From positions 1 through 27,493 of the forward strand of contig JABLUY010000360.1 in assembly GCA_013306675.1 (NCBI GenBank): 27,493 bases of DNA, in the 5' to 3' direction. The DNA comes from Thraustochytrium sp. TN22 (taxonomy: Eukaryota > Sar > Bigyra > Thraustochytrida > Thraustochytriidae). Position numbers and translations under genes: made by a program. Of the stretch, positions 1-25,436 are shown one piece after another; within the stretch, counting starts at the first letter, position 1, and the number at the start of each line of letters is the position of its first letter. Under the pieces are notes generated by a model. It was given only the letters and a program-made list of their open reading frames with translations. It made no database searches and was not told the origin of the DNA.

Positions 1-3000
1 CAGGCGCGCGTGGCCAAGGTCAGCAACCGCGGCGACTGCGTCGGCGCCTATGCGCACGGCTCGCTCTGCGTCGCTGTATTGATCTTCACCGTCGTCGACC
101 TCCGCTTCTCCTTGAGTCGGCACACGGCGTCCTCCGCGCGTTGCGGTCTGCGGACGCTGGCGACTCGGCGCACGCGGCTTGCGGTCCTGCTGAAGCGCGG
201 CGATCTGCTGCTCGAGCACCTTGGCACCGCTGCTGTCGGAGCTGTCCTCCTGAAAAATAGCAAGGTCCTGGCTCATCGTGGAGTCACTGCTCATGAGATC
301 CGGGTCGCCAGGTTGGAAAGCCTCGTCGTCCTCGACGGCCTCGTCGACCTCGCAGTCCTCCTCGTGGCCCTTTTGCTCCTCCTCATTGTCGAGAAGCCGG
401 TGCACGCTGGCAAGCGAGAGCTGGCGCGCGTCCACCGTGAAGTGGCCGGGCGCTGTGTTGAGGCGCTGCTGCGGCTGGCGAAAGGAGTCCGCCATGGGGT
501 TCCTGGAGGCGGCGAGCTGCGGTTCGGCCAGGACGGACCGCGCCTTGAGGTCAGCCGAGGACCTCCGCGCCGTGGGCCCTAGCGGCTGCCATTGGATGCG
601 GATCAGGCGGTGCGCCGCGCGGTCCGAGAAGTCGAAGGTGCTGGCCGCGTTGGAGGCGTCCACCTTGCGCTGAGCCGCGTCTTGGCGCGCCAGGCGCACT
701 TCGGTCTGTGCGAGCGCCGTGCGCAGGCGATCCAGGCGAAGGTTACGGTCCTCCTCCCACACGCTGGCGTCCTCGGCAACCGAGACGCCCGAGCGCCGCA
801 GCAGCGTGGCAAAGGGCCCACTCGAGGCGCGCTCCACCGCGGCTCCGGCACGCAGGGCAACGTGGAACCAGGGCGAGCGCAGCTCCTCGTACGCGATGCG
901 GGCAGCCGCCTCGGACACCGTGGGCGCGCCCGCGACACGGTCCGCAAAGTCCTTGAGCGCCGCCCGCGCCTGCCTCCGCTTCTCGGCGAGCCGCGCCTGC
1001 AGCTGGCGCACAAGCTCGGCCTCAGGCGCGTCCGCCAGGGTCTCTGGGCCAACTCGTGCGCAAGCTGTCTGGACTTTGCGTGCCAGCGCATCGGCCCGCT
1101 GTATGGCCGCCAGCACGGGCGCAGGCACACTGTGCCGAAAGAGCTGCGCCTCGTGCAGGCTCGTCTCGTGGCGGCGCAGCATGTGCTCGATGCGGCTCAC
1201 GTGGAAGTCGATGGCTCGCAGGCGCATTACGCCCGGGCGCTGCGCGCGCAGGACCTGCAAGTCCCGCAGACGCTCCAGGTAAATGGCGGCCAGCATGTTG
1301 CCAAAGTCGAGCCAGGAATCCAGCTTGCGCACGAAGCCCGTGTCCACGGCGCTCAGCAGCTTGTACAGGTCCTGCTTGCTCAGGCCGGTGTCCAGGCCGG
1401 ACAGGTAGCGCACGAACTCGGCCGCCGAGGCCCCGCGCGGGAAGACCGCCGCCGGGTGCGCGCCTTCGCTCTCCAGCGCGTCCACGATGACACCCAAGGT
1501 CTCGCGCAGCCACTGGCGGTCGTTGCGGGAGGGCGCCACGAGCTCGGCAGGGCCTGTGGGTGCGCCTGCGGCCGCGCCCGTGCCCTTGGCGCCCTCGGCG
1601 CCCTCGGCGCTTGCACTGCCCTCCTCCATGACGCCGTCTGTGAGCCGTATGATGCGGCGCCGAAAGGCCTGGACGAAGCGGTCCTTGGAGATCTCGGTGC
1701 GGCCGCCGCCCAGGAGGCTAAAGACCGCATCGAACTGGGCCCAGGCCAGCTTGATGCCCAGCGTGCGCCGCAGGCCCGTGGCCAGCGCCTTGCGGTTAAG
1801 AGCCAGCGGCGCATCCTCGCGCAGCTGGCCCGTGAAGCAGACCTCGGCGAGCGCATCGAAGAACTGGCCCAGCGAGGCCGGCATGCGCGTCGCCTGCAGC
1901 GTGTCGGCGATGGTGCGCGCGATGATCACCATGCACTCCTCGGTCGTGGCGCCATCCGGCACGCGGTACAGCTTGGGCGCCTTGGCCGCCTTGGCCGCCA
2001 CGGCCGGGGAGGCTGCTGTTGCCTTGGCACCGACCCGGCCGCCCTCCGCGCCGCCACGCACGCAGTCCACCATCGCGGACGGGCTCACAGGGTCCGCGTA
2101 CTCGCGCGTGGGCGAGCGCAGCTTTAGGTGGTGCGAGCGCATGCCGAGTTGCGTGCGCACGGAGAGGCGGTGGCGCGAGCTCTGGCCCGGGCGCACGTCG
2201 CCGCTGATGATCGACCAGCCGTCCTGGCCGGCCACAAAGGCGGTCAGGAGCTCCTGTTCGTTGGTCATGAAGCAAAGCAGCGGCTTCGAGAAGACGTAGC
2301 GATCCTCGTCCAGCAGGCCCTGCGCGAACTCGCGCTCTTCGGGCGGTTTGCTGTGCTTGACCACGGCCGGGCTTGCGGGCCGCGAGCCAGGGTGCGGGCG
2401 CGCCACGGCCCAAGCCGCGCCGCAGTACGACTGCAGCTCGCAGCCGGCAAAGTCGAGCTTGAAGAATGTGCTCTGCCGCGCGCCCGGTAGTCCCGGCACG
2501 CAGGCGAAGCCCGAGTGCACAGCCAACTGCGGCAGCGTGAGCTCCACGCGCCCAGACGTTGTGCGGTGCGCGCCCTGCTCCCGGCACGCGTGCCAGAGCG
2601 CGCGGCTCGCGCGAAGCACGTCGTCTTGCCCAAGCCAGCTCGGTGGCACTTCCGTCACCCAGAGCGACTGCAGGCCGTCCGGCGAGCGGATGCGCGCCAC
2701 GACCTGGCGCGCCTCAATGATGCGGTTTGCCACCGCGTTCGACGTGCGCGGTGTCTGCTCGTGCAGCTGGTACATGGACAGCACCGAGGCGGTGGGGCCC
2801 ACGCGACTGGACCGGATGCAGACGCCGCGGAAGCGACGCACCGGGAGGTTTCGGATCGCCGAGCTTGCCAGCTCCAGCTCCTGTGGCTCGGTCTCCGGGC
2901 CGACACGCACGACGCTCCGGGCGGCATCCAGCTCGTGCTGGAACGGCACGAAGGACGGCAGCTCCAGCGTCACAGCGGTGGCCGCCTCGGACGGCAGACC

Positions 3001-6000
3001 GAAGCCGCCCTGCAGCGAGCCAACGCTGTAGCACTGCAGCGGGCCCCAGTACCGACTCAGCGGCATGTGGGCGCCGGGAGGAATGTAGCGCTCACCGTCG
3101 CTCGTGCCCACGCTGTCCTCTGGGACCAGCAGGTGCATGCCGCGCAGCGCGTGACACGCCGTCGAAACGTCGACCACGTCGCGGCCGTCGAGCTCGAGGC
3201 CCAGACGCAGCAGGTCGTGGTCTTCGCCGGGCGGTCGTCGCGGCGGCGTCACCGCAGCGGAAGTGGCGGAGGCCACGGCGGACGCCACCGCAGCGCGGGC
3301 GGGACCCGCGGCAGGCGCCAATGTGCGCACCTTGGTGATGCGCCGCGTGAGCCCGCGGTTTGCGCCACTGGCGTTCACCACGTGCATGCCGACCACCTCG
3401 CTCGCGCGGACCAGCTGCCGCACGTGCGCGCTGTAGAGGCTAGCGTGCAAGCGCTCGCGGTCCGCCGGGCGAAGCGCCTTGAGCTTTTGCGTCAACTGCG
3501 TGGACCCGCTCAGGTGGCTCTTCGGGTGCAGGAGCGGCGGCGCGAGCGAGAGCTCAGCGGTCCCGCTGATGTTGGCGTCCTCGCGCTGCAACCACGCGTT
3601 CATGTCGAGGGCGTGGAAGGTGGCAAAGGAGTCGAGCGCGTCGCTAAAGGGCGCCTGGTCGCGCAGGTTGCGCATCCAGCGCACCGAGCCGGTCACCTCC
3701 GGCGACAGCTCCAAGTCGTCGGGCAGAACAGCGGCGCCAAAGGCCGCCGTGCGCGCATGCAGGAGGCCCGGCGTGTCGGAGACGCCAGCGCGGACGCGCT
3801 CCCGCGCCGCGTTAATGGCGAGGGTCACGCAAATGCTGTCGGTGAACACGCTGGCCTGGTTCACGATGCTCCACTGCAGGCCGACCAGGGCGTTGCGCGT
3901 GGCATGGTTAGGCGGCGGGAATCGCTCCATGGCGCGCAGGATCCGGGCCTCCAGGCACGGCAGCTCCCACACGATGGGCACTGGCGGGCGGGCGACGACC
4001 GGATCCAGCGTCAAGGCCGGCGCCCCGGAGATCGTCGGCGCCGCGAGGGAGAGCATGGCCGAGGGCGCAGCGCTCGAGCTCTCGCTGGTTTCCGTGGCAG
4101 ATGGCAGCCAGTCCATGTTGTCGTCGTCATCTTCGTAGGTGTCGTCGTCCTCGTCGTTGTTATCGTAAGCGCCCCCCTCCTCGTGCTCGTCCTGCGCGTT
4201 GGCGCCATTCTCCGCGTCGTCAAAATCGTCCGCGTAGTCATCATCTTCGTCCCCCCCATCCTCTGCCTGTCGGCCCCGCGTGCCGTCCTCGTCGTCGAGA
4301 TCGTCTTGCTCGGGTTTGGCGTCCCTGCGAGTCGGCGGCCTGCCGTGGTGGGCGGGCGCCGTGAAGGGCCTCGTCGCCAGGGTCTCGGCGGGGCTCGCGG
4401 AGAGCGCTGCGCGGATGCTGTCCATCTCGGCGTCGACCTGCGCCTGCAGAGCGCCGTCCGCCAGGACCGGATCAACATCCATGCTCAGGTGTTCCGCGGC
4501 GATGCGAACCACCGCCACGAAGCGCGCCTTCGTGATGCTGCCCACGTCAGCCGTGTCGAAGACGCGCCACAGCCGGAAGCGTTCCTTGGCGGCGAGCTTG
4601 CCGCGACTCACGCCCTCCTCCTGGAGGATGGCGCTTACAACGCGGCCGAAGTCGCCCACGGACACAGAGCCGTCAAGGTTGGCGTCGAAGGCCGCGTACG
4701 CCTGGTCCAGCGGGAGACTGGTCCTGAGAATGGCGCGAATGACGCGCCGAAGCACGTGCCCAATCGCGTCCGCCTCCGGAGACCGCTCGCGCGTCCACCA
4801 GAAGCCCTGCCGCAGACCGGTCTGCGCGGTGCCGGGACGCGTGTCGGTGCCCGCTAGATGGCGCGGCGACTTTGTGATGCGGCACATGTCCTGGGCGTCG
4901 TCGTTGATCCAACGCACCACGCCACCGCCAGCGCGCGCGATGCGGGCCAGGGCGCCGTGCGAGTTGTCCACCTCGGGCCCGAGGACGGTGACATTGACGA
5001 CCACGGTGCAGCCGCCGACCTTGGGAATCACGCAGGACCGCACGCGGGTGCTGGGGCTCGCCGGGTAGCGAGCTCCGGAGGAGGAGGCACCAGGGTTGGC
5101 AGCAGCGACACCGGGAGCACCAGCGGCCTGATTGGGGCCGCGAATAAGTTTAGCGAGCGTGTGGCCTTTGAGCGCCTGCAGGGCGCACCGGTGCCGCTGG
5201 CGGCCGGACGCGGAGGAGGACTCCATATCCTCCATTGCGCAAATGAGGCAGACCTCGCTGACGGCGTCACGGTCCAAGATGTCCAGGACGATTGCGCGCA
5301 AGACGCGCGGCGCCTGAGTCGCGAATGACTTCGCCTCGGACCTCTCCGGAGGCGTGCGCTCGCGCTGCTGTAGCTGGCGTTGCAGAAAGCCTTCGATCTG
5401 AGTCACCGTCTCGGACGTGAGCCGCGTGCACCGCTCTTGCCACTTGACAACCCGGACGCCGTCTCCGAAAAGCACAAGGTTGACCTTGTTGGTGCAGCCG
5501 GCATCCGCGCGCCTGCGTAGCGAGACCAGCACCTCCTCGATGGCAAAGCGGGCACGTGACTGGCCCGACGTCATGAGGGCGCGTACCATGCCTGGCGAGA
5601 GGTCGATCACGACAACGAAGGTACTCATGTCTTCGATGCGACCCAGCAGTGCGCTAGGCGGCGCGACCGGCAAGGCGCCGGCAATAGGGTGATGCGATGT
5701 CTCGGCGGGCGTCCGCTGGCGGTGTCTTGCGACGCCACCGTTCGATCGCGCGGGCCGCGCACTCTGCGGCCGCGTCGGCTTTCCGGGCGTTGTGGCCTTC
5801 TGGTGCTGCGGTCCGGCTTGCGACGCGCGGGCCTCAAAGTAGGCGCAAAAGGCGTCTCCGTGGAGCATGAGGTCGTCCGCGCGTGCGTCGAGCCCCATGC
5901 CGTGAAGGATCGGGTAGAGATCCTGGTGCGCGAGGTGCGGGGCGACGCCCTGCAACCTGCGCAGCGCCTCGGCGACCGAGAGCGCCGGCTTGCCCTCCCA

Positions 6001-6519
6001 GAGCGACTGCGGGGTGCGGTTCTGGGCGCGGAAGCCTTCGCTCAGGCTGCGGATGGCGGCCGCCTCGCGGTCCAGGTCGGAGTCCGCGGCCACAGGCGCT
6101 GCGCTTCGGCGCAAGGCGGTGAAGTCGTGCGCAAAGTCGAACTGGCCATCGCCGTTGCGGTCGAGCCGCGCGAAGATGACGGCACGGAGTGCCCGCGGTA
6201 CCTCGACGCCTAGGTTTCGCGCGAGGCTCTCAAAGAGCTCCTTCTTGCGCAGCGGCCTCGCCAGCGCGCGATGATTCGGATACTGCAGCCTCAGAAACGC
6301 CGCCTCCGTGTGCGGCACCTTCTCCACGGCCGCCGCGATCCTCCTCTCCCACCGCAGCACCTCATCTTCCGCGCCCCGCTCCTCCGTGTCCTTCTTCCCC
6401 TTCCACTTCTTGCCGTCCTCCTCCACCTCCTCGTCCTCCTCCTCCTCCCACGTCTCGTCCGCGCGCGAGAGGCCGTCCAGCACCGCCAGGTCCGCCTCGA
6501 CCTGGCCGCGGCTCGCCAT
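1..6519 (-). CDS. Giant vWA-like / EF-hand protein, 3' end missing at left window edge
   Basis: The minus frame read from the ATG at 6519 has no stop down to base 1, giving 2173 codons with the C-terminus outside the window. An in-frame TGA at 6610-6612 bounds it upstream and 6519 is the only ATG after that stop. Visible order: acidic N-terminus (about residues 20-40); an EF-hand-like loop DRNGDGQFDFAH at 120-131, whose last position is not acidic; a vWA-like Rossmann region from about 300 to 540, beginning VVVIDLSPGM (D306, S308), so the metal site is only partly kept, and ending ARAGGGVVRWINDD; a second EF-hand loop DANLDGSVSVGD at 612-623 with a degenerate partner near 655; a highly acidic linker at about 735-805; a long unrecognised middle; a possible degenerate EF-hand near 1594-1615; and another acidic stretch near 2040-2076. 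No signal peptide or membrane segment was seen. A calcium-responsive scaffold is a guess; the function is unknown. It is divergent from the glycosyltransferase gene. Confidence 0.85.
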   Translation of the reverse strand, partial: MASRGQVEADLAVLDGLSRADETWEEEEDEEVEEDGKKWKGKKDTEERGAEDEVLRWERRIAAAVEKVPHTEAAFLRLQYPNHRALARPLRKKELFESLARNLGVEVPRALRAVIFARLDRNGDGQFDFAHDFTALRRSAAPVAADSDLDREAAAIRSLSEGFRAQNRTPQSLWEGKPALSVAEALRRLQGVAPHLAHQDLYPILHGMGLDARADDLMLHGDAFCAYFEARASQAGPQHQKATTPGKPTRPQSARPARSNGGVARHRQRTPAETSHHPIAGALPVAPPSALLGRIEDMSTFVVVIDLSPGMVRALMTSGQSRARFAIEEVLVSLRRRADAGCTNKVNLVLFGDGVRVVKWQERCTRLTSETVTQIEGFLQRQLQQRERTPPERSEAKSFATQAPRVLRAIVLDILDRDAVSEVCLICAMEDMESSSASGRQRHRCALQALKGHTLAKLIRGPNQAAGAPGVAAANPGASSSGARYPASPSTRVRSCVIPKVGGCTVVVNVTVLGPEVDNSHGALARIARAGGGVVRWINDDAQDMCRITKSPRHLAGTDTRPGTAQTGLRQGFWWTRERSPEADAIGHVLRRVIRAILRTSLPLDQAYAAFDANLDGSVSVGDFGRVVSAILQEEGVSRGKLAAKERFRLWRVFDTADVGSITKARFVAVVRIAAEHLSMDVDPVLADGALQAQVDAEMDSIRAALSASPAETLATRPFTAPAHHGRPPTRRDAKPEQDDLDDEDGTRGRQAEDGGDEDDDYADDFDDAENGANAQDEHEEGGAYDNNDEDDDTYEDDDDNMDWLPSATETSESSSAAPSAMLSLAAPTISGAPALTLDPVVARPPVPIVWELPCLEARILRAMERFPPPNHATRNALVGLQWSIVNQASVFTDSICVTLAINAARERVRAGVSDTPGLLHARTAAFGAAVLPDDLELSPEVTGSVRWMRNLRDQAPFSDALDSFATFHALDMNAWLQREDANISGTAELSLAPPLLHPKSHLSGSTQLTQKLKALRPADRERLHASLYSAHVRQLVRASEVVGMHVVNASGANRGLTRRITKVRTLAPAAGPARAAVASAVASATSAAVTPPRRPPGEDHDLLRLGLELDGRDVVDVSTACHALRGMHLLVPEDSVGTSDGERYIPPGAHMPLSRYWGPLQCYSVGSLQGGFGLPSEAATAVTLELPSFVPFQHELDAARSVVRVGPETEPQELELASSAIRNLPVRRFRGVCIRSSRVGPTASVLSMYQLHEQTPRTSNAVANRIIEARQVVARIRSPDGLQSLWVTEVPPSWLGQDDVLRASRALWHACREQGAHRTTSGRVELTLPQLAVHSGFACVPGLPGARQSTFFKLDFAGCELQSYCGAAWAVARPHPGSRPASPAVVKHSKPPEEREFAQGLLDEDRYVFSKPLLCFMTNEQELLTAFVAGQDGWSIISGDVRPGQSSRHRLSVRTQLGMRSHHLKLRSPTREYADPVSPSAMVDCVRGGAEGGRVGAKATAASPAVAAKAAKAPKLYRVPDGATTEECMVIIARTIADTLQATRMPASLGQFFDALAEVCFTGQLREDAPLALNRKALATGLRRTLGIKLAWAQFDAVFSLLGGGRTEISKDRFVQAFRRRIIRLTDGVMEEGSASAEGAEGAKGTGAAAGAPTGPAELVAPSRNDRQWLRETLGVIVDALESEGAHPAAVFPRGASAAEFVRYLSGLDTGLSKQDLYKLLSAVDTGFVRKLDSWLDFGNMLAAIYLERLRDLQVLRAQRPGVMRLRAIDFHVSRIEHMLRRHETSLHEAQLFRHSVPAPVLAAIQRADALARKVQTACARVGPETLADAPEAELVRQLQARLAEKRRQARAALKDFADRVAGAPTVSEAAARIAYEELRSPWFHVALRAGAAVERASSGPFATLLRRSGVSVAEDASVWEEDRNLRLDRLRTALAQTEVRLARQDAAQRKVDASNAASTFDFSDRAAHRLIRIQWQPLGPTARRSSADLKARSVLAEPQLAASRNPMADSFRQPQQRLNTAPGHFTVDARQLSLASVHRLLDNEEEQKGHEEDCEVDEAVEDDEAFQPGDPDLMSSDSTMSQDLAIFQEDSSDSSGAKVLEQQIAALQQDRKPRAPSRQRPQTATRGGRRVPTQGEAEVDDGEDQYSDAERAVRIGADAVAAVADLGHARL

Positions 6520-8415: not shown

Positions 8416-9792
8416 TCACGGCACGAGCTTGCCGCTGTAGCGGCAGTAGCGGTGAAAAACCAAGGCGGCGGCGAAGAAGTTGAGGGCCATGGCGAAGAAG
8501 ACGTGGTGCCAAGAGCCGGAGGCCTCCTTGATGAAGGCGACCATGGGCACACCGATGATGCCGGCGAAGGCGGCAATGGTGTTGGAGATGGACTGCAAGC
8601 GCCCAACGTACTCGGGCGCGGCGATGTCTAGCTTGGCTGCGTCGTAACCAGCGACAGGTCCCGACCCGTTGCAGGCGAGAGCGAGGCACATACAGACCAT
8701 GGAGGTGGAGGCCCATGTGGAGCCCGCGAGCATCAACATAAAGACACCTGCGCTGATGAAGCCCGTGACGGAGGCGGTGCGGCGCACGGCGTCGAGCGGG
8801 AGGGTTCCCCGCGCGACAAACCCGTCCACGTGTGCCGAGGTGAACGCGATGGCGATGCCCATGGTCACATACGGTAAGCAAGAGACTGCGAGAGAGGACC
8901 CGCTGAGGCCGTAGACCTCCTCAAAGTAGGTGGGCATCCAGCTCATGAGGACGTAGACGCCGACGTTGTTGCAAAAGTGCGCAAAGTAGATCGCGGCGCA
9001 TACCTTGTTGCAAAGCATTTTGCGTGTCTGCTTCCAGAAGCCGACGTCGGACCCCTTGGGGGGCGCTGTCTTGGGCGATGCGGGCACCGGCCGGGCCGGT
9101 GGGCAGCACGGGAAGAGGTGCGTGTCTCCGTCGGGCGCATCGATGTAGACTGAAAAGTACACCCAAAAGACGACCCAGACGAGGCCCAGGCCGCCGAAAA
9201 AGTAAAAGACCGCGGACCAGTGGTAGCGCTGCATGAGCACGGGCGACACGGCGAAGGAGAAGACGGCGCCGAAGAAGACCCCGACGTTGATGGCACCGAG
9301 TGCGCGTGAGCGCTCCTCAGCCGGCACGCGCGCAGCAAAGAGATGGTAAATGACCGGGAACGCGCTTCCTTCGCAGACGCCGAGCGCCATGCGGCCCATG
9401 ACCACGTACAGATGTGAGTGGTGCGCGAGCAGCGGCACGATCAGCGTGGACAGGCTCCAGGTGAGGCTAGCAAAGGCCAGCACGACGTGACCTCCGTAGC
9501 GCTGCGCCACGAAGGCACTCGGTATCTGCGACCAGATGTAGCCCCAGAAGAAGGCGGCTAGCACCGAGGCGCGCTGATGCAAATCCCAATCGAGCTCCTT
9601 GGCCATGTCCGTGATGGCCACGCTCAGATTGACGCGGTCGCAGTAGCTCAGTGCTGTACACAGGCTGCACAGCACGATGAGCAGCCGTCGTCGCTTTGTC
9701 GCCACTGTCGCCGAGCCGCCATGGTGCAGCTCGCGCAGGCCCTCGACGACCTCCGGCGCCGCATCTGCATCGCGCACGTGGCGCTTGTTCAT
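8416..9792 (-). CDS. SLC17/PHT4-like major facilitator anion transporter, copy 1
   Basis: This is a complete 458-residue MFS protein of the anion:cation symporter (SLC17) group, whose members move phosphate, ascorbate, organic anions or sialic acid across plasma, vacuolar or plastid membranes. Family marks are SYCDRVNLSVAITDMAKEL in the first membrane helix and following loop, AAFFWGYIWSQIP, LGVCEGSAFPVIYHLFA, ERSRALGAINVGVFFGA, and ALACNGSGPVAGYDAAKLD in the C-terminal half. About 12 hydrophobic segments are spread over the length, with a Pro-rich cytoplasmic loop near the middle (about residues 230-255). A short Arg/Lys-rich hydrophilic tail precedes helix 1, with no clear targeting peptide. 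The ATG at 9792 agrees with the start chosen for the paralogue. Substrate cannot be read from the sequence. It is the downstream member of a same-strand tandem pair. Confidence 0.95.
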   Translation of the reverse strand: MNKRHVRDADAAPEVVEGLRELHHGGSATVATKRRRLLIVLCSLCTALSYCDRVNLSVAITDMAKELDWDLHQRASVLAAFFWGYIWSQIPSAFVAQRYGGHVVLAFASLTWSLSTLIVPLLAHHSHLYVVMGRMALGVCEGSAFPVIYHLFAARVPAEERSRALGAINVGVFFGAVFSFAVSPVLMQRYHWSAVFYFFGGLGLVWVVFWVYFSVYIDAPDGDTHLFPCCPPARPVPASPKTAPPKGSDVGFWKQTRKMLCNKVCAAIYFAHFCNNVGVYVLMSWMPTYFEEVYGLSGSSLAVSCLPYVTMGIAIAFTSAHVDGFVARGTLPLDAVRRTASVTGFISAGVFMLMLAGSTWASTSMVCMCLALACNGSGPVAGYDAAKLDIAAPEYVGRLQSISNTIAAFAGIIGVPMVAFIKEASGSWHHVFFAMALNFFAAALVFHRYCRYSGKLVP

Positions 9793-10455: not shown

Positions 10456-11865
10456 TCAACCTGGCACGACCTTGCCGGTGTAGCGGCCAAAGAGGTGAAA
10501 GACGAGTCCTGCAGAGAAGAAGACGGCGGACATAGCGAGGAAGACGGCCTCCCACGAGCCGGTCTTGTCCTTGATAAAGGCGACCATGGGCACACCAATG
10601 ATGCCGGCAAAGGCGGCGATCGTGTTGGAGATAGACTGCAGGCGGCCGACGTACTCGGGCGCGGCAATGTCGAGCTTGGCGGCCTCGTAGCCTGCGACAG
10701 GCCCGGACCCGTTGCAGGCGAGCGCAAGGCACATAAAGGCAATAGCGACGATCGGATTGGAGGCCGTGGCGATGCCGAGCATGAAGGTGCCGGCCCCAAC
10801 GAAACCGGAGACCGTGGAGAGACGGCGCACGGCGTCGGGCGCCAGGTCGCCGCGCGCGATGAAGTCGTCGGCGCGCGCCGAGGTGAAGGACACGGCGACG
10901 CCCATGGTGATGTAGGGCAGGCAGGAGAGCGCGAGGGAGGAGCCACCAAGGCCGTAGGCCTCTTCGAAATACGTGGGCAGCCAACTCATGAGCACGAAGG
11001 CCGCAATGTTGTGGCAAAAATGCGCGTAAAAGATGGCGCCGACAACCTTGTGGCAGACGATGAGGCGCGTCTGCTGCCAAAAGGAGAGCGCGTCGGGCGG
11101 TGCGGCCTTGCGTGCGGCTGCGTGGGGCTGCGGCTCGCGTGGCGGGAAGCAGGGTAGCGAGGTGGTGCCGTCGGGCGAGTCAATGTAGAAGGCGAAGAGG
11201 CCCCAGAAGAAGACCCACACGAGGCCGAGGCCGCCGAAGAAGTAAAAGACCGCGGACCAACCGAAGTGGTGCATAAGCACGGGCGAGGCGGCAAAGGAGA
11301 AGACGGCGCCGCTAAAGACGCCAAAGTTGATGGAGCCGAGCGCGCGCGAGCGCTCGTCGGCCGGCACGCGGGAGGCGAAGAGGTGGTAGATGACCGGGAA
11401 GGTGCTGCCTTCGCAGACGCCCAGCAGCATGCGGCCGTAGACCACATGCTGGTACGAGATGCGCGCTAGCACAGGCACCGCCAGCGTTGACAGACTCCAC
11501 GCGAAGCAGGCCACCCCGAGGACGATGTGGCCGCCATAGCGCTGCGCCACGTAGGCGCCCGGGATCTGCGACCAGATGTAGCCCCAGAAGAAGGCCGCCA
11601 GCACCGAGGCGCGGTGGTGCAGGTCCCAGTCGAGCTCCTTGGCCATGTCGGTGACGGCCACGCTCATGTTGACCCTGTCGCAGTAGCTGAGCGCAGTGCA
11701 GAAGCTGCACAAGACCACCAGCAGCCGTCGCCGCCACACGTCCACGGGGTCCTCCTCTGCTCCGCCCTTGTGCCGCGGTCCGCCCTCTAGCGCCACGCGT
11801 CGCCGCTCCGCATCGTCCTCGTCCAGGTGCTTGCGCTTGACGCGCGCCGCGTGGACGCCGCTCAT
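10456..11865 (-). CDS. SLC17/PHT4-like major facilitator anion transporter, copy 2
   Basis: This 469-residue protein is the close paralogue of the neighbouring transporter. It keeps the same marks: SYCDRVNMSVAVTDMAKEL, AAFFWGYIWSQIP, LGVCEGSTFPVIYHLF, DERSRALGSINFGVF, YFFGGLGLVW, and SGPVAGYEAAKLDIAAPEYV followed by a long block that is nearly unchanged between the two copies. They differ mainly at the N-terminus, in the central loop and in scattered helix positions. The frame extends upstream to an ATG at 12021, but that stretch is Arg/Ala/Ser-rich, contains GAGC tandem repeats and has no counterpart in copy 1, so I place the start at 11865. The alternative, that 11866-12021 encodes a basic targeting leader, is not excluded. 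Same orientation as copy 1. Confidence 0.94.
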   Translation of the reverse strand: MSGVHAARVKRKHLDEDDAERRRVALEGGPRHKGGAEEDPVDVWRRRLLVVLCSFCTALSYCDRVNMSVAVTDMAKELDWDLHHRASVLAAFFWGYIWSQIPGAYVAQRYGGHIVLGVACFAWSLSTLAVPVLARISYQHVVYGRMLLGVCEGSTFPVIYHLFASRVPADERSRALGSINFGVFSGAVFSFAASPVLMHHFGWSAVFYFFGGLGLVWVFFWGLFAFYIDSPDGTTSLPCFPPREPQPHAAARKAAPPDALSFWQQTRLIVCHKVVGAIFYAHFCHNIAAFVLMSWLPTYFEEAYGLGGSSLALSCLPYITMGVAVSFTSARADDFIARGDLAPDAVRRLSTVSGFVGAGTFMLGIATASNPIVAIAFMCLALACNGSGPVAGYEAAKLDIAAPEYVGRLQSISNTIAAFAGIIGVPMVAFIKDKTGSWEAVFLAMSAVFFSAGLVFHLFGRYTGKVVPG

Positions 11866-11943
11866 GGCGTTGCGAGCGCGGTCTCGCAAGCTAGCTAGCT
11901 TGCTAGCGAGCGCACGGGCGAGCGGGCGGGTGGGCTGGCGACT

Positions 11944-11963
11944 GAGCGAGCGAGCGAGCGAGC
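11944..11963. repeat. (GAGC)5 tetranucleotide repeat in leader of transporter copy 2
   Basis: Five exact GAGC units lie about 80 bases upstream of the chosen transporter start codon. Imperfect CTAG and GAGC runs continue toward the start codon. Confidence 0.9.
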
Positions 11964-12245
11964 GCACGGGCCTGCCCCGCGCCCTCGACCGCGCCGCCGC
12001 CGCGCAGGCTCTGCCTGCCAAAAGGCAGCCTGAGCGGCTCCGTCGGGCTGCAGTGCGGTTATGCTGACCGGCCGAACGCGCCGTGACCTCGGGTCGAGCT
12101 CGACGTCGATGTCCTTCAAGTTCAAGTTCAAGTGCAAGTTGCCCTTCAAGTTGTCCTCAGGCTGGCGTCGGCCTTTAATTAAGTTGTTGCGCTTGGCAGC
12201 TTTGGCCGACTCCGCAAGCTGGCCTTGGGTCGACTCCAGCCGTTG

Positions 12246-17581: not shown

Positions 17582-19387
17582 TCACACAACACGCATATCG
17601 CCTGCGGCAGCAGACATGAGTTTGGCCAGATACTCGTCGAAGAGGTCGCGGTCATTCTCAAAGAGCCAGGCAGCGGCAACGATAAGGAGGAGAACGCTGT
17701 TCTTGGCCATCTTGCGCCGCTTCGACCAGCGCTTCGAGGCCTCGGTCTCCTCGGCCGGCCGGACGGGCGCCGGTTTGAGCAGCACGTGGATCGTGGACCC
17801 GAAAAGGAAGGCAAACACGGTCGACGACAGCGTGATGACGTTGTACGGCATGCTAAAGTCCGGCAGCGGCATGCTCACGATGAGCGGCTCCGCGTACGCG
17901 CGCAGGCGCCGCCCGGCAAGCGGTCCGTGCGCCCGATGGCCTTGCAGCGCGGACTGCACCGGCAGCAGGACGCAGCCGTCCGGTTGCGGCACCACGTAGC
18001 TCACCACTGCGGAAGGAATGTCAAAGCCGCGGTTCGGGTCCGGCGGGAAGTCCCACACGGGCAAGAAGGCTTGGCGGAACTCGTATGAGATGACCACCTC
18101 GGCGCCCGCAGGCACGTCGAGCTCCAGCTCCAGCTGTGTGGCCGCGCCATTAAAGTCGGACAGCGAGATTCGCGACGCGTTGCCACCTGGGCTCCACAAC
18201 TGCGCTGCAGGCAACGTACGACCGGCCACCTGCACGCGCAGCGAGCTCGGCGTCAGCCGCAGGTACGCCGGCACGAGCTCCAGGTAGCGGACGCGCAGCG
18301 GCGTCCCGGCAGATGCAAAGGAGGACGATGCGGCGAGCACTGTCACGACGCCGCCGCTCACGCGGCCGGTGCCTGACGCGAAGCGCTCGCGCACTTGCAA
18401 AAGGGCTCGAGGAGGCACCACGGGGCGCGCCACGGCCGCCGTCGGCGTGAATTCCCCGTGCGGCACGGCGTGCAGCGTCGTGCGCGCCGAGCCCCACGTG
18501 CACGAGGATTCCCTAGCAAGGCCGCTGTCGCCCTTTTCGGCCGACGCCTCAACAAAAATCGAGGACACGGCGGCGAGCGGGCACGCCGAGACCTCTTCGA
18601 GGCCAGGCGCCAACGTGGCGAGCTCCGCAGCACCCGCCTCGACGCGGCCCACCGCGACGGTGACGGAGAACGTGAGCTCGACGCCGGGCGAGGCACACTC
18701 GCGCCAGCCGCGGCGCCCCCCGCACGTGCGGCGAAAGTGCAGGCGCATCGCGTGGTGGTCGGCGCGGAAGATGACAGTAGGCGTCAGCAGGCGCGCCAGC
18801 CCCGCGTGGCTGCGGCACGGCAGCAGCTTGAGCAGCGGCGTCAGGTTCTCCGTGCACGACGCTTCCGACGGCAGTTGGCCGTAGCGCAGGTGCACGGGCG
18901 AATCCTCCGCGAGCCCAAAGCTGGCGCGCGGCTGCGCCACGGCAGCCTCGCCGTGCAGTGCGCTCAGCGACGCGCACGAGAGCCCGGCCAGGGCGCCCGT
19001 GAGCGACTCCCACGCCTCGGGTGCCTCCTCGTGCAGCAGCGCCCACATCTCCACACCAGGGGCCACCGGAGTGGGCGGCGCGCCCCAGGCGTCCTGCCAC
19101 CTGCCCTTGCCAAAGCTAAGCTCCACCTCCTCCACGCCGTACCGCCCCATGGCCTGCCCAAACTGCTTCGGGAACAGGTTGAAGTGCTGCCACGCAAACT
19201 CCTGCTCCTGCTCCCAGCGCAGCGTGAACTGCACGTGCGACACTAGGGTTTCCCAGCCCTGCTCTTCGCCCCGCGGGCTCTCGTCTTTGACGCGCCGCAA
19301 CAGCGCCTCCTCCCAGAACGTCTCCGCGCCGCGCGCCACACTGCACGCCGCCGCCAGCGCGCACAGCACCGTGCCCAGCATCTTCAT
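17582..19387 (-). CDS. PIGT: GPI transamidase component PIG-T (Gpi16-like)
   Basis: This 601-residue protein is the PIG-T subunit of the ER GPI-transamidase complex, which cleaves the C-terminal signal of precursor proteins and attaches the GPI anchor. It begins with a signal peptide (about residues 1-21, cleavage near RGA/ETF), then the luminal domain with family marks LSFGKGRW, GVEMWALL, LRYGQLPSEASCTENLTPL (first cysteine of the conserved set), KLLPCR, and LHFRRTC. Near the C-terminus PDFSMPYNVITLSSTV (509-524) opens the conserved membrane helix. After it the protein continues with a basic stretch (SKRWSKRRK) and a second hydrophobic segment (about 563-576) ending in an acidic tail. The open frame reaches 19804, but the extra 139 residues hide the signal peptide, so the start is 19387. 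It converges on SHMT and diverges from the mL46-like gene. Confidence 0.96.
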   Translation of the reverse strand: MKMLGTVLCALAAACSVARGAETFWEEALLRRVKDESPRGEEQGWETLVSHVQFTLRWEQEQEFAWQHFNLFPKQFGQAMGRYGVEEVELSFGKGRWQDAWGAPPTPVAPGVEMWALLHEEAPEAWESLTGALAGLSCASLSALHGEAAVAQPRASFGLAEDSPVHLRYGQLPSEASCTENLTPLLKLLPCRSHAGLARLLTPTVIFRADHHAMRLHFRRTCGGRRGWRECASPGVELTFSVTVAVGRVEAGAAELATLAPGLEEVSACPLAAVSSIFVEASAEKGDSGLARESSCTWGSARTTLHAVPHGEFTPTAAVARPVVPPRALLQVRERFASGTGRVSGGVVTVLAASSSFASAGTPLRVRYLELVPAYLRLTPSSLRVQVAGRTLPAAQLWSPGGNASRISLSDFNGAATQLELELDVPAGAEVVISYEFRQAFLPVWDFPPDPNRGFDIPSAVVSYVVPQPDGCVLLPVQSALQGHRAHGPLAGRRLRAYAEPLIVSMPLPDFSMPYNVITLSSTVFAFLFGSTIHVLLKPAPVRPAEETEASKRWSKRRKMAKNSVLLLIVAAAWLFENDRDLFDEYLAKLMSAAAGDMRVV

Positions 19388-19440
19388 CTTGCCGCCGCCC
19401 GAGCGCCTCTGCGTCGCGGCGCCGCGCCCCGGTCGCGCAG

Positions 19441-19464
19441 GCTGCGCGGCTGCGCGGCTGCGCG
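19441..19464. repeat. (GCTGCGCG)3 octanucleotide repeat in PIG-T leader
   Basis: Three exact 8-bp units lie about 55-80 bases upstream of the PIG-T start codon. Confidence 0.88.
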
Positions 19465-20346
19465 GACACCAGGCCGCGCTGGCGCCAGCACGCCGCACCG
19501 GCGCACGTCCGCCGCCGCGCAGGCGCCGTTTGCAGCTTTGGAGGAGGAGTCCTTGGCCGAGGTCGGGCGCAACCCGGCCGAGCTGCACGAGAAGATCCGG
19601 AGAAGAGACGCGAGCATTCGTTGTTATTACCGTACCCGTCACGCATACCACCCGAAGATCGAGCTTGCTTCTGTCGACTAGAGCTAGCAGCCAGGTGACG
19701 AGACCAAAGAACGGCCCAGCGGAAGGCATGCGCAAAGGAAGAGTGCATCTATCGTAGACGTAGAGAAGGAGCACACGCAACTGACACAGCTCGCGACATT
19801 CCACTCACTATCAAGATCCATCTCATGCACGACCCGATCGCTTCCTTCAGCTTGAGCGAACGAGCAATAGCAAGACGTAAGCGCTGACAAGATCGCAAGT
19901 GCTCACAATGTTTCGCACCCACTGGCTAGCCAAGGCCTAGAGCAAGGGCTCGGAAGACTTGCTGCAGACTCTGCAAGATCTTGCAAGCCTGACCGCGACT
20001 CGCAAGAGCTCGCACGGCCCGTCGCAAACTCACTGTCAGCAATGTTCGCCGCGCAGCCGACACGACCTCGCCAGAACTCGCCAGAATTCGCAAGACGCTT
20101 CCAGCCTCTCCGTGCAGTGGCTCTTGCCAGCTTGGTAAGTTGCGACCAACCAGCGAGCACAACCGTGACAGCAAGCCCACGACGCGCACAGCGCCGCGCC
20201 GCGCCCGAGCGTGGCTGCTGACACTGATCAGTGACAGTGGCTGGCCGGTGGGTCGGTTTCGCAACTGCCCTGCGCCGGTTACGGCGGAGCGGGCGCGCTG
20301 CCGCCCATACATTCATTCGCACATGCAGCAGCGAGCAAGCAGGCTC

Positions 20347-21764: not shown

Positions 21765-22003
21765 GCAGTAAAAGCTTGGCTTGGAGAGAGAATCAACGAA
21801 CGACAACAACGTCAACAAGACGAGAGAGAATAGCAAAAGGAGCGCGCAAAATGGCGGCGTGTGGGCACACGGCGCTGGCAGCGGCAGCAGCGACTATCCT
21901 TTGACCCGGACCAACAATTGCCGCGAACAACAACGCCAACGACAAAATTAAAAAGGGAGTTATAAAAAGCAAGGAAAGCAAAAGACACATTGCGAGCGAG
22001 CGA

Positions 22004-22114
22004 GCGAGCGTTTGCTTGCCCGCGCTTGCCGGTCTCAAGCATTTCGCAAGCGTCTTGGAATCCTGAGCGAGCATCCATCAGCCTGGACACCTTGGGGACG
22101 CTGCAGGGCTTTGC
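22004..22114. repeat. Diverged direct repeat, copy A
   Basis: This copy begins GCGAGCGTTTGCTTGC and aligns along its length with 22214-22327. Shared blocks include GTTTGCTTGC, ATTCGC/ATTTCGC, CGTCTTGGA, TGAGCGAGCAT and GGGGACGCTGCAG versus GGAGACGCTGCAG. Small indels separate the blocks. Confidence 0.8.
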
Positions 22115-22213
22115 TACGTACGGCACAAGAGGGCGCCATGAATTCAGAGAAAATATCTGAAAATGGACTCGGAGACTTTTTGAGGTCGGCTGTGGAGTCT
22201 CGCTCGCTCGGCG

Positions 22214-22327
22214 GCGAGTGTTTGCTTGCAGCACTCGCCAATCTCGGACAATTCGCGAACGTCTTGGATTTGTATTTGTGAGCGAGCATCAGTCTGTACA
22301 TTAGGGAGACGCTGCAGAGCATCTTCG
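22214..22327. repeat. Diverged direct repeat, copy B
   Basis: This copy begins GCGAGTGTTTGCTTGC and matches copy A (22004-22114) in the same block order, offset by about 210 bases. The divergence suggests an old duplication. Confidence 0.8.
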
Positions 22328-22486
22328 CGTGTCAGTGCCACGACGCACGCAAGAAGTGCCTTGAATTTATATTGGAAATTCTTCGAGCAAAGGCCGGCCG
22401 CATCGTAGAGACTTGGCTACATGCCACGGCCGCCGGTAATAGTGTTCTTCAAAGCTCAGCTGCAAAGTTAGTGACGTTCAAGGGCT

Positions 22487-25436
22487 TCACGTCTGCACCT
22501 TGCGCAGGCCACTGGGACCAACGTCCTCGAGATCCTGCATGACCTCGTTGAAGAGTCGCGCGGTCTTGACGGCCTCGACATTGCGCTTGTCGCCGGCGGA
22601 GTCGATACGGTCGTAGGTGTGAAGGCGGTAAATGTAGGTCCAAAAGACGAGGTTGTAGGTGACAAAGAGGGTGGCCATGATGGCAGTGACGGAAGTCGGG
22701 TCGATGACGGCAAAGTCGACGTCAGTAGCCCACGGGAGGTGACCCCAGTCGCCCTGGCGGTGGAGCGCGTGGTCGGGTGCCAGCCAGAGCGCGGTGACGA
22801 TGGCGACGGCTTCAAGCGTGGACACGATAATGCCGGAAATGACGGCGACGCGCTTGTCCCAGGCGGAGTTTGCGAGGAAGGTGACGATGACGGCAAAGAA
22901 GCGGTTGCGCTCGGAGTTCGTGGCCCACCAAATGAGGACGCGCAGGAGAATCATGCCGAGCAAGATGGCGCCGGCGATGAGCGGGTCGAAGATGGAGGTG
23001 GCGAGGCCAATGGTCATGGCCCGGAAGGAGAACTGAGAGATGTGAAAGATCCAGCAGGGAGTGAGGCGATAAAAGAGCGCGGCGCCCTCGAGGTTGACGG
23101 AGGCATGGCGCATGATGAACTCCTTTTCAAAGAGGTCCGCGAAGGTGTTGCCGAGCACGATGAGCGAGAGCCCGACCGAGAGGAGCACGGTGGCGTCGGC
23201 GACCGCGCTAAAGCCCTGGCCCTCGCGGCCGAGCGCGTGCACGAGGAAGTTAATCTGCAGAAAGGCCTGCGGACCGGACTCGCCAGCCACCTCGACGACG
23301 CGCAGGCTACCGAAACGCGCCGTGGTCTCGTTGTTCTCATAAGAGATCCAGGCCTCGCGCGCCACGCGCAGCTGCAGCAGCGTAAGCACGGCGTTGCTGA
23401 CGCGCGAAAAGAAGCTCTTGTCCTCGACCTCGAAGGGGCTGGACATGAAGATCATCATGTACAGGGTTGGCAGGACGAGGAAGGCGAGCGAGCAGCCGAA
23501 CCAGGCGTAAGACAGGTTGCCCTCATCGGCCGCCGACGTGTAGAGCTCGATGATCACGAGGACGTCGGTAGCGAGGTCGAACCAGTTCATGACCACCGCG
23601 AAGACCAGCATGGAGATGGAGAACTGCGTGATGGTCTCAGACTTGGCGATCTTGACGCCAAAGGTTTCGAGCGAGCCCTTGGCGATCTGCGTGCCGTCCG
23701 TGGAGATGACGAGCTGCACGTGGGACTCGCCCGTGGCGCCACGGCGGTTGGCGCGCTTGAGCCAGCCGTCCTGTGCGGAGCGATCGCCGATCGGGTTCTC
23801 GTCCAGCTCCAGCGTCTTGAGCGTGGTGTTCTTCTCGGATGCCAGCACGTAGCCGAGGATCTCGGCGCCTTGGTTGCCGATGGCGTTGCGCGAGAGGTTG
23901 AGCCGCCGCAGCGTGGTGTTGGACTTGAGCCCCTCCGAGATGGCCGTGGCCGACTCGTCGCCCAGGTCGTTGCCATCCAGGTTGAGCGTCTCGATGGAGG
24001 CGTTACGCGCCACGAGCTGCGCGAGCGCGCCGCCGCAGGCGTCCGAAAGCTTGTTGCGCGAGAGGTCCAGCTCGAACAGCGTGGAGGACGACTCGATGGC
24101 CGCCGCAAACGGGATGAGCCCGCGCGAGTCGAAGACGTTGTCCTGTAGGTGCAGCTTTTGCAGCGGGACGCCGGTGCCTTCGATACACCTGCCCAGCGCC
24201 ACGAGGCCCTCGTTGCCCAGGCTCGTCATGTTCAGGCGCAGCTGCCGCAGCGCCGTCTCTGCGTGCAGACCGCCAGCCAGCGCAGCCACGCCCTGATCGC
24301 TCAGGTTGTTGCGCTGCAACCAGAGCGACCTGAGCGTGTGGTTCTGCTGCAGCGCACCCGCCAGAAGGGCGCCGCCCGCGTTCGTGATGAAGTTGTCGCC
24401 CACCATGAGCTCTTCTAGCACGATGTTCTGCCGCAGCGCCATCGCAAGGTGGGCGAGGCCCTCCACCCCGATGCGGTTGTTGTGCAGGTCCAGATGCCGC
24501 AGGTTGAAGTTCTCCGCCAGCGCCGGCCCGAGGTGCGCGCACGCCGCCGCGGACAGTCGATTGCCCGAAATGTCGATCTTCTCCAGCGTGCGGTTGCCCT
24601 CCACCATGTGTCGCGCCATGTAACCGGCCGCGTCGTCGATGCCGCAGTCTTGCGCCACAAAGGTCGTCACCGTGCCGCAGCGTCCCAGCCCCACGCTGAG
24701 CGCCGCCATGCCCAGGCTGCGCAGCTTGCGATTCTGGTCCAGGTTCAGCGACTGCAGCGCCGTGCACCGGCCCACCGCGTACCCGAGCGCCACCGCGTGC
24801 GCGTCCGTCAGCTGGCAGTCCTGCAGCAGGATGGCCCGCACGTCCGGCTCGTGCGTCACGATGTACCACACCAGCACGTGCATTGTCGACATCTTTAGCC
24901 GCTGGTTGTACAGGCGCACCTGGCCTAGCGCCGCCTTCTCGTCCGGCATCCCGTCCGCCTCCACGTCATCGAAAAAGTCCACGGACACCGCGTCGTCCTG
25001 GCGGTTGTCCCCATCGTCGCCCTCCTCGGGGGGCTCATCGTCCTCCAGCACCTCGTCCTCCCACCCCACGTCGTCCATCTCCGCCTCGCTCGCCCCCGCA
25101 CGGTGCTCCTCGCCGTGCTTGTGCAGCGTCATAAGCACCGGCAGCAGCGCGCGCCGCAACTGATGTTCCAGCTTGAGCTTCTTCAGCCTCGAGATGGCCC
25201 CGTGCAGCGTCAGGCCTTCAATCAGGCTCTCGTCGAAGTTCACATCCTCCTCCGAGAACGCCTGGTCCTGCTCGTCGCCGTCCCCTGCGAGCCTCTTGAT
25301 CTGCGCGAGCGCCAGCACGCGCGTGCTCCCGTCAGCTCAGCCTTGTCTGCCGCGCCCAGCGCAGCGCCTCACGTACCAGGGGCGTCGCCACGATCTCCGT
25401 GGCGTTCACCGCCGCCTCCACCAGGTCCGACGCCAT
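22487..25436 (-). CDS. Leucine-rich-repeat / XK-related (XKR) membrane fusion protein, two exons
   Basis: The coding sequence joins exon 1 (25436-25377, 20 codons from an ATG in context AAGATGG) to exon 2 (25300-22487) across a 76-base phase-0 intron, giving 957 residues. Without splicing, the large frame has no ATG until well inside it. Residues 1-150 are hydrophilic with an acidic stretch (about 90-140). Residues about 175-525 are RNI/NLRC3-type leucine-rich repeats, around 12 units of the form LxxLxLxxNxLxxxGxxxLAxAL. Residues about 580-905 are a polytopic membrane domain with XK-related marks: NWFDLATDVLVIIELY (D595, D599) in the first helix and VVEVAGESGPQAFLQINFL (E694, P697, Q698). Animal XKR8-type proteins scramble phospholipids, so lipid scrambling controlled by an LRR sensor is a hypothesis. 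It converges on the mL46-like gene. Confidence 0.85.
25301..25376 (-). other. 76-bp spliceosomal intron in the LRR-XKR gene
   Basis: On the minus strand the donor is CCCCTG then GTACGTGAGG at 25376, a branch-like GCTGACGGG has its adenosine at 25332, and the acceptor GCTCGCGCAG ends at 25301. Splicing joins codon 20 (CTG) to ATC in phase 0. Read through, translation would stop after 34 residues, at a TGA inside the intron. Confidence 0.85.

Follow-up and report, generated by a model that had tools for sequence, protein, structure and literature searches.

XKR scramblases are known in animals, as cell-death and blood-group proteins which are switched by proteolysis or by kinases. Here we describe a gene of Thraustochytrium sp. 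TN22 that lies within a 27,493-nucleotide stretch of DNA (hereafter the window), the entire contig JABLUY010000360.1 (C289) of assembly GCA_013306675.1. Its predicted 957-residue product carries an N-terminal arm of leucine-rich repeats (LRRs) of the ribonuclease inhibitor (RNI) type, followed by a multi-pass domain, which makes the protein very probably, on sequence comparison, a member of the XK family. The protein may be a divergent XK-family fusion acting as an LRR-gated scramblase; for this reading, including the inferred scrambling, we estimate a probability of about 0.48.

In XKR8 six charged residues are essential for scrambling, namely D26, D30, R134, E137, E141, and R183 (PMC8500837, in the part consulted), and the family is characterized by an acidic cluster on transmembrane helices (TM) 1 and 3 and by a kink of TM3 at a PQL motif (PMC8298096, likewise in part). 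XKR8, XKR9, and XKR4 have in common with the window protein the paired Asp in helix 1, and XKR8 and XKR9 also the motif R-x2-E-x3-E-x2-PQ, in place of which XKR4 shows H..A...E..PQ; the order of hydrophobic segments in XKR8, with a hydrophilic TM3, is similar as well. The window protein differs from all three in carrying at its N-terminus an LRR arm more than 500 residues long, and in an overall identity that is at chance level. The original prediction for this locus stated that animal XKR proteins lack LRRs; this holds for the solved XKR8 (405 amino acids) and XKR9 (374 amino acids) chains, which the XK match spans so fully that an LRR array of this kind would find no room, and for animals at large it is an extrapolation from these two. 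LRRC8 volume-regulated anion channels also carry an LRR arm on a membrane domain, but theirs is C-terminal, and their fold is that of a channel. The LRR-ROCO candidate immune receptors of brown algae possess a GTPase, not a membrane domain, and their LRR repertoires involve exon shuffling (PMC11378527, in the part consulted). No description of an LRR-XKR fusion was found in the literature searched, largely titles and the beginnings of abstracts; eukaryote proteomes lay outside that search, and such a fusion may stand unremarked in databases.

The XK-Related Membrane Domain

The features of the membrane part are as follows, with residues numbered on the 957-residue model.

23102..23620, minus strand, first XK repeat, residues 581-753 (TM1, TM2, an IH1-like segment, hydrophilic TM3, TM4); PF09815 at 29.0 bits
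23564..23578, minus strand, D595-x3-D599, within the first hydrophobic helix; by alignment the counterpart of D26 and D30 in XKR8
23267..23302, minus strand, R687-x2-E690-x3-E694-x2-P697-Q698, counterpart of XKR8 R134, E137, E141, and the PQL kink by alignment
22637..23101, minus strand, putative second XK repeat, residues about 754-908, with hydrophobic segments ordered as in XKR8

The Pfam XK-related family (PF09815; profile length 337) has a curated cut-off of 24.8 bits, which the 173 residues of the first repeat, a slice picked after a first scan, exceed with an E-value of 7e-7 over profile positions 2-167; for comparison, a 356-residue piece of human XKR8 reaches 344.1 bits. A better match to another membrane family, the outcome that had been named beforehand as fatal to the XK assignment, did not appear: with the C-terminal 420 residues as query and E up to 10, no Pfam family other than XK-related gave a match. 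The remaining matches of the various slices are below their cut-offs and at chance level (DUF1414, 12.6 bits; 7TM_GPCR_Srx, 15.2 bits; Syndecan, 7.4 and 6.8 bits). NCBIfam gave no match and PHROGs a single one (E 0.21). Five of the ten decoys generated, one reversed and four locally shuffled, were scanned in the same way, and none matched a Pfam family at E up to 10.

Five of the six residues required for scrambling in XKR8 are found in the window protein, with identical spacing within each motif; the distance from the first Asp to the Arg is 92 residues as against 108 in XKR8. The acidic cluster on TM1 and TM3 and the PQ kink correspond to D595, D599, E690, E694, P697, and Q698, and both XK marks claimed from the sequence at the outset (a paired Asp in helix 1 and an E-x-x-PQ motif) are present, as D595/D599 and E694-x2-PQ. 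MAFFT alignment with XKR4, XKR8, and XKR9 places the motif residues in register; the XKR8 reference used agrees with chain 7dce_X at 395 of 395 letters. When the window domain was shuffled 100,000 times, the joint pattern D-x3-D plus R-x2-E-x3-E-x2-PQ never arose; once the PQ was left out, it arose in 512 of the shuffles. In a pool of 476 frames, which overlap and were mostly chosen for XK similarity, the joint pattern is present in 11 rows, all of them XK paralogs (five distinct genes).

Hydropathy analysis reveals segments at residues 586, 621, 649 (weak), 719, 769 (weak), 794, 838, and 883. The helix near residue 687, which bears the motif, is hydrophilic, like TM3 of XKR9. Segment order and spacing are near those of XKR8, and the weakly hydrophobic IH1-like segment scores 0.94 as compared to 0.93. 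The hydropathy pattern fits the XK architecture, in which two related four-helix repeats each include a half-inserted helix. With loop borders set by hand, the loop after helix 1 contains no Lys or Arg and that after helix 2 contains five, a distribution that fits an inside N-terminus and cytosolic LRRs; the LRRs of the window protein are thus probably cytosolic. The conservation of the XK residues favors the view that the lipid path has been kept.

A number of results weigh against reading this protein as an XK scramblase. XKR8 R183 has no clear counterpart. The PF09815 score falls below the cut-off when the slice is lengthened, to 24.5 bits (E 1.6e-5) for residues 581-908, 22.8 bits (E 5.4e-5; profile positions 2-242 of 337) for the C-terminal 420 residues, and 19.1 bits (E 7.1e-4) for the whole frame. 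The second repeat alone gave no XK match, whether as residues 778-957 (best, 7TM_GPCR_Srx at 15.2 bits) or 754-957 (best, Syndecan at 6.8 bits). A six-frame search of the whole genome with PF09815 missed the window gene and listed two other loci alone (L001 and L002, discussed below), both under the cut-off; that search is therefore not sensitive. At the 56 columns invariant in XKR4, XKR8, and XKR9, the window protein is identical at 15, compared with a mean of 14.5 (s.d. 2.9) for 150 local shuffles aligned in the same way, 75 of which reach at least 15; overall identity thus carries no signal. Two profile rankings were weak. With a three-sequence XKR profile and 6,003 entries, one shuffle had a better full score than the window domain, which came second; its single-domain score was the highest among the matches listed. 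A profile built from the three animal sequences and seven paralogs (one row of which, C119_55, was mis-trimmed and retained LRR sequence) ranked the window domain first, at E 0.019 against 0.066 for the best shuffle. Solved structures were searched by sequence with three queries (the membrane part, one paralog piece, and a three-row profile), none of which returned an XKR match. The comparison with XKR8 and XKR9 structures proposed in the original prediction was attempted with AlphaFold2 models from single-sequence input; at a mean pLDDT of 42.9 for the 943-residue frame and 38.7 for the 420-residue membrane part, these were too poor for the fold to be compared. Finally, rat XKR9 showed no scrambling in vitro (PMC8298096, in the part consulted), so that XK membership is no proof of activity.

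Could the domain be something other than XK, that is, an unrelated multi-pass domain in which two short motifs have arisen by chance? The chance-level column identity, the unmatched second repeat, the lack of a sequence match to solved XKR chains, and the sub-threshold scores of the longer slices are all in favor of this. Against these stand the E-value of the first repeat, the silence of all five decoys, the failure of shuffling to reproduce the joint motif, and the absence of any competing family, and we consider a non-XK origin quite improbable. For the first repeat, the XK-related identity put forward originally finds support in the profile match and in the XKR8 active residues, which are in register; the second repeat goes unrecognized by the profile.

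The Leucine-Rich Repeat Arm

The arm upstream of the membrane domain is located as follows.

23738..24841, minus strand, RNI-type LRRs, residues about 174-541; Pfam LRR_6, PDB sequence matches, and regular-expression units

Pfam LRR_6 scores 107.8 bits (cut-off 23.4), and eight stretches pass individually. A regular expression finds ten regular units of 28-30 residues from residue 259 to approximately 541, preceded by less regular ones from about residue 174, which makes the earlier count of "about 12" repeats a fair one. The tandem 28-30-residue LxxLxLxxNxL units that mark the RNI type are present; units of 28 residues are also those of ribonuclease inhibitor, the LRRs of NLRs, and axonemal MOP84A. 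The best PDB sequence matches are MOP84A (E 5.4e-31) and ribonuclease inhibitor (E 9.5e-29), with NLR LRRs lower. The low-confidence AlphaFold2 model of the 943-residue frame shows strand/helix alternation from frame residue 247. A NACHT or NB-ARC domain, as expected of an NLR, had no Pfam match in the window protein at E up to 10.

At least 49 RNI-type LRR matches, the window included, are found in the genome at E up to 1e-6; such repeats are common here, and the arm by itself is ordinary. Among the other 48 loci, 11 were examined, and the two longest frames of each contain at most one strong hydrophobic peak. One of these 11 (L065) possesses E..PQ and no hydrophobic peak. We know of no RNI-type LRR protein with a lipid-path membrane domain.

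Gene Model

On the minus strand a stop-free frame of 943 codons extends from 25318 to a stop at 22487, with no ATG close to its start. If a predicted 76-nt intron is skipped, a 20-codon exon beginning with the ATG at 25436 is joined to it in frame. The length of the resulting model matches the residue numbering of the original prediction.

22487..25436, minus strand, whole gene, 957-residue model (MASDLVEA...RKVQT); open frame plus predicted splice
25377..25436, minus strand, predicted exon 1, 20 codons from the ATG; no signal peptide apparent by eye
25301..25376, minus strand, predicted phase 0 intron of 76 nt (donor GTACGT, acceptor GCGCAG), joining the ATG to the long frame
22487..25300, minus strand, exon 2, an unbroken frame that holds both the LRRs and the membrane domain and includes the stop codon, read from the sequence
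24941..25084, minus strand, acidic stretch in the sequence, residues about 93-140, probably disordered

The proposal that a single frame encodes LRRs and then a multi-pass domain is borne out, both lying within exon 2, and since they share an exon, separate mRNAs for the two parts would require unusual splicing.

Half-XKR Genes in the Same Genome

The genome searched comprises 37.9 Mb in 453 contigs. A tblastn search with one paralog query identified 11 loci (L001, L002, L005-L013) that contain an extra helix and the first XK repeat only, which we refer to as half-XKR genes; two further paralog queries recovered the same 11. They are distributed as follows, by tblastn.

C409:185768-202800 (L016, L017), six half-XKR loci within 17 kb
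C119:55487-59356 (L019), two half-XKR loci
C333 (L021), C71 (L022), and C88 (L020), one half-XKR locus each

One paralog query also yielded a weak piece with a stop at C409:201026 (E 3.3e-4) and a chance-level match on C77 (E 1.45).

As proteins, L001 and L002 pass PF09815 with 28.1 and 26.1 bits (23.5 and 22.1 bits in the six-frame search). The other nine are grouped with them by tblastn; of these, five show no XK match and the remaining four only sub-threshold ones, at 11.5 to 14.9 bits. The usual layout is one of plant/SHOC2-type LRRs (where seen), in many cases a Pro/Thr/Ser-rich linker, the extra helix, the first XK repeat, and a stop. An LRR family is above its Pfam cut-off in the same frame in 7 of the 11 loci, and L002 and L007 show weak LRRs; L001 is cut by the contig end. 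L005 (1252-3453, minus strand) is built differently, with a signal-peptide-like start (by eye), a non-LRR ectodomain, and a Pro/Thr-rich linker before the XK repeat. Its ectodomain has no significant Pfam or PDB sequence match; a vWA-like appearance, judged by eye, found no support and was dropped. Given the extra helix before TM1, the LRRs of the half-XKR proteins are probably outside the cell, if the orientation of XK TM1 is kept.

Four of these genes share LRR segments with 86-94% identity over 77 residues. Of the six pairs that these four form, two have membrane parts that are 79-82% identical, and in the other four pairs the figure is 41-48%; one pair combines 94% identity in the LRRs with 42% in the membrane part. 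The simplest reading is that LRR segments have been exchanged or converted among the half-XKR genes.

The window protein differs from this set in its type of LRR, in lacking the extra helix before TM1, and in continuing beyond the fourth XK helix, after which the half-XKR frames end. When its membrane part was compared to the genome by tblastn, only itself was found. A profile built from the 11 paralogs failed to distinguish it from 5,000 shuffles (4 of the 11 rows had kept LRR sequence), and a repeat on membrane columns was again negative, the sub-significant alignments having both motifs in register; hhalign gave a probability of 0.1. The window protein and the half-XKR set are thus joined through PF09815 and shared residues and have no direct sequence link. 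The sole tblastn match of XKR8 in the genome (L058; E 0.0127) has two hydrophobic peaks in its longest frame and no E..PQ, and was dismissed as chance. Pattern-based scans of viral and prokaryote contigs found no relative.

All five charged residues, in the form D-x3-D plus R-x2-E-x3-E-x2-PQ, are retained in 7 of the 11 half-XKR genes, and R-x2-E-x3-E is lost in C409_190, C409_187, C409_195, and C88. That the fold seems to persist in these four without the TM3 charges lends some weight to the view that the window protein has a true XK fold which does not scramble, so that the LRR arm and XK domain together would form an adhesion, scaffold, or trafficking protein. A non-scrambler would have no need of the five XKR8-essential residues which the window gene retains, and we regard this function as rather unlikely.

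Proposed Mode of Action

Under the LRR-gated scramblase model, the C-terminal part would be a divergent XK-related domain and the N-terminal part a cytosolic RNI-type LRR arm. The XK domain would function as a phospholipid scramblase with a closed resting state. Its lipid path would open, and phosphatidylserine would be exposed, when the arm bound a ligand, such as a protein; this binding would replace the caspase cut of XKR8 and XKR9. The topology, the scrambling, the gating by LRRs, and any stress or immune role are the inferred elements of this model.

LRR arms are commonly protein-binding, and this counts equally for an arrangement in which, at membrane contacts, the scramblase has a bridge lipid-transfer protein as its partner, the arm being a docking site and not a sensor. 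The partnership of XK and VPS13A at the plasma membrane (PMC9436381, in the part consulted) offers a precedent. Nothing in the sequence indicates such a partner, no VPS13 search having been made in the genome, and we hold this arrangement to be improbable.

The genome contains eight matches to the P4-ATPase C-terminal domain, which make lipid asymmetry plausible. There are also five anoctamin matches (four of them strong), and two contigs hold a total of five pieces of genes of the caspase/metacaspase family. Flippases, other scramblases, and proteases of this kind hence exist alongside the window gene. Three of the TMEM16 (anoctamin) matches, at 389 to 416 bits, lie within approximately 11 kb (C88:125544-136217).

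Significance

If the proposed gating is correct, lipid exposure would be controlled directly by a built-in sensor, and this machinery would be placed outside animals, in what is apparently a single-celled eukaryote. The half-size relatives would make it possible to test directly whether a single repeat is enough for a lipid path, and how the two-repeat XKR fold arose. Their LRR segments are nearly identical where the membrane parts have diverged, which suggests a receptor repertoire that swaps its recognition part. A broader and more tentative suggestion, which we think possible and still on the unlikely side, is that in this genome lipid-path domains of the XK type serve as the output stage of LRR receptors. 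These would take two forms, a cytosolic LRR sensor on a full XK domain (the window gene) and clustered, LRR-swapping single-repeat receptors with LRRs probably outside, the single-repeat proteins representing a half-unit from which the duplicated XKR fold could have been put together.

Other Genes in the Window

The other frames of the window give no hint of what the fusion gene does. They include transporters of the major facilitator superfamily (MFS), an ankyrin-repeat protein, and a GPI transamidase subunit; those listed here are all on the minus strand.

17582-19804, minus strand, Gpi16, GPI transamidase subunit, 299.6 bits
12393-13433, minus strand, ankyrin-repeat protein
10456-12021 and 8416-9792, minus strand, two MFS transporters, 142.4 and 163.8 bits, respectively
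1-6519, minus strand, 2173-residue open frame at the window edge, with sub-threshold EF-hand matches only

Just 3′ of the fusion gene, at 22000-22330, two similar stretches lie approximately 210 nt apart and have in common, by eye, GTTTGCTTGC, CGTCTTGGA, and GAGCGAGCAT.
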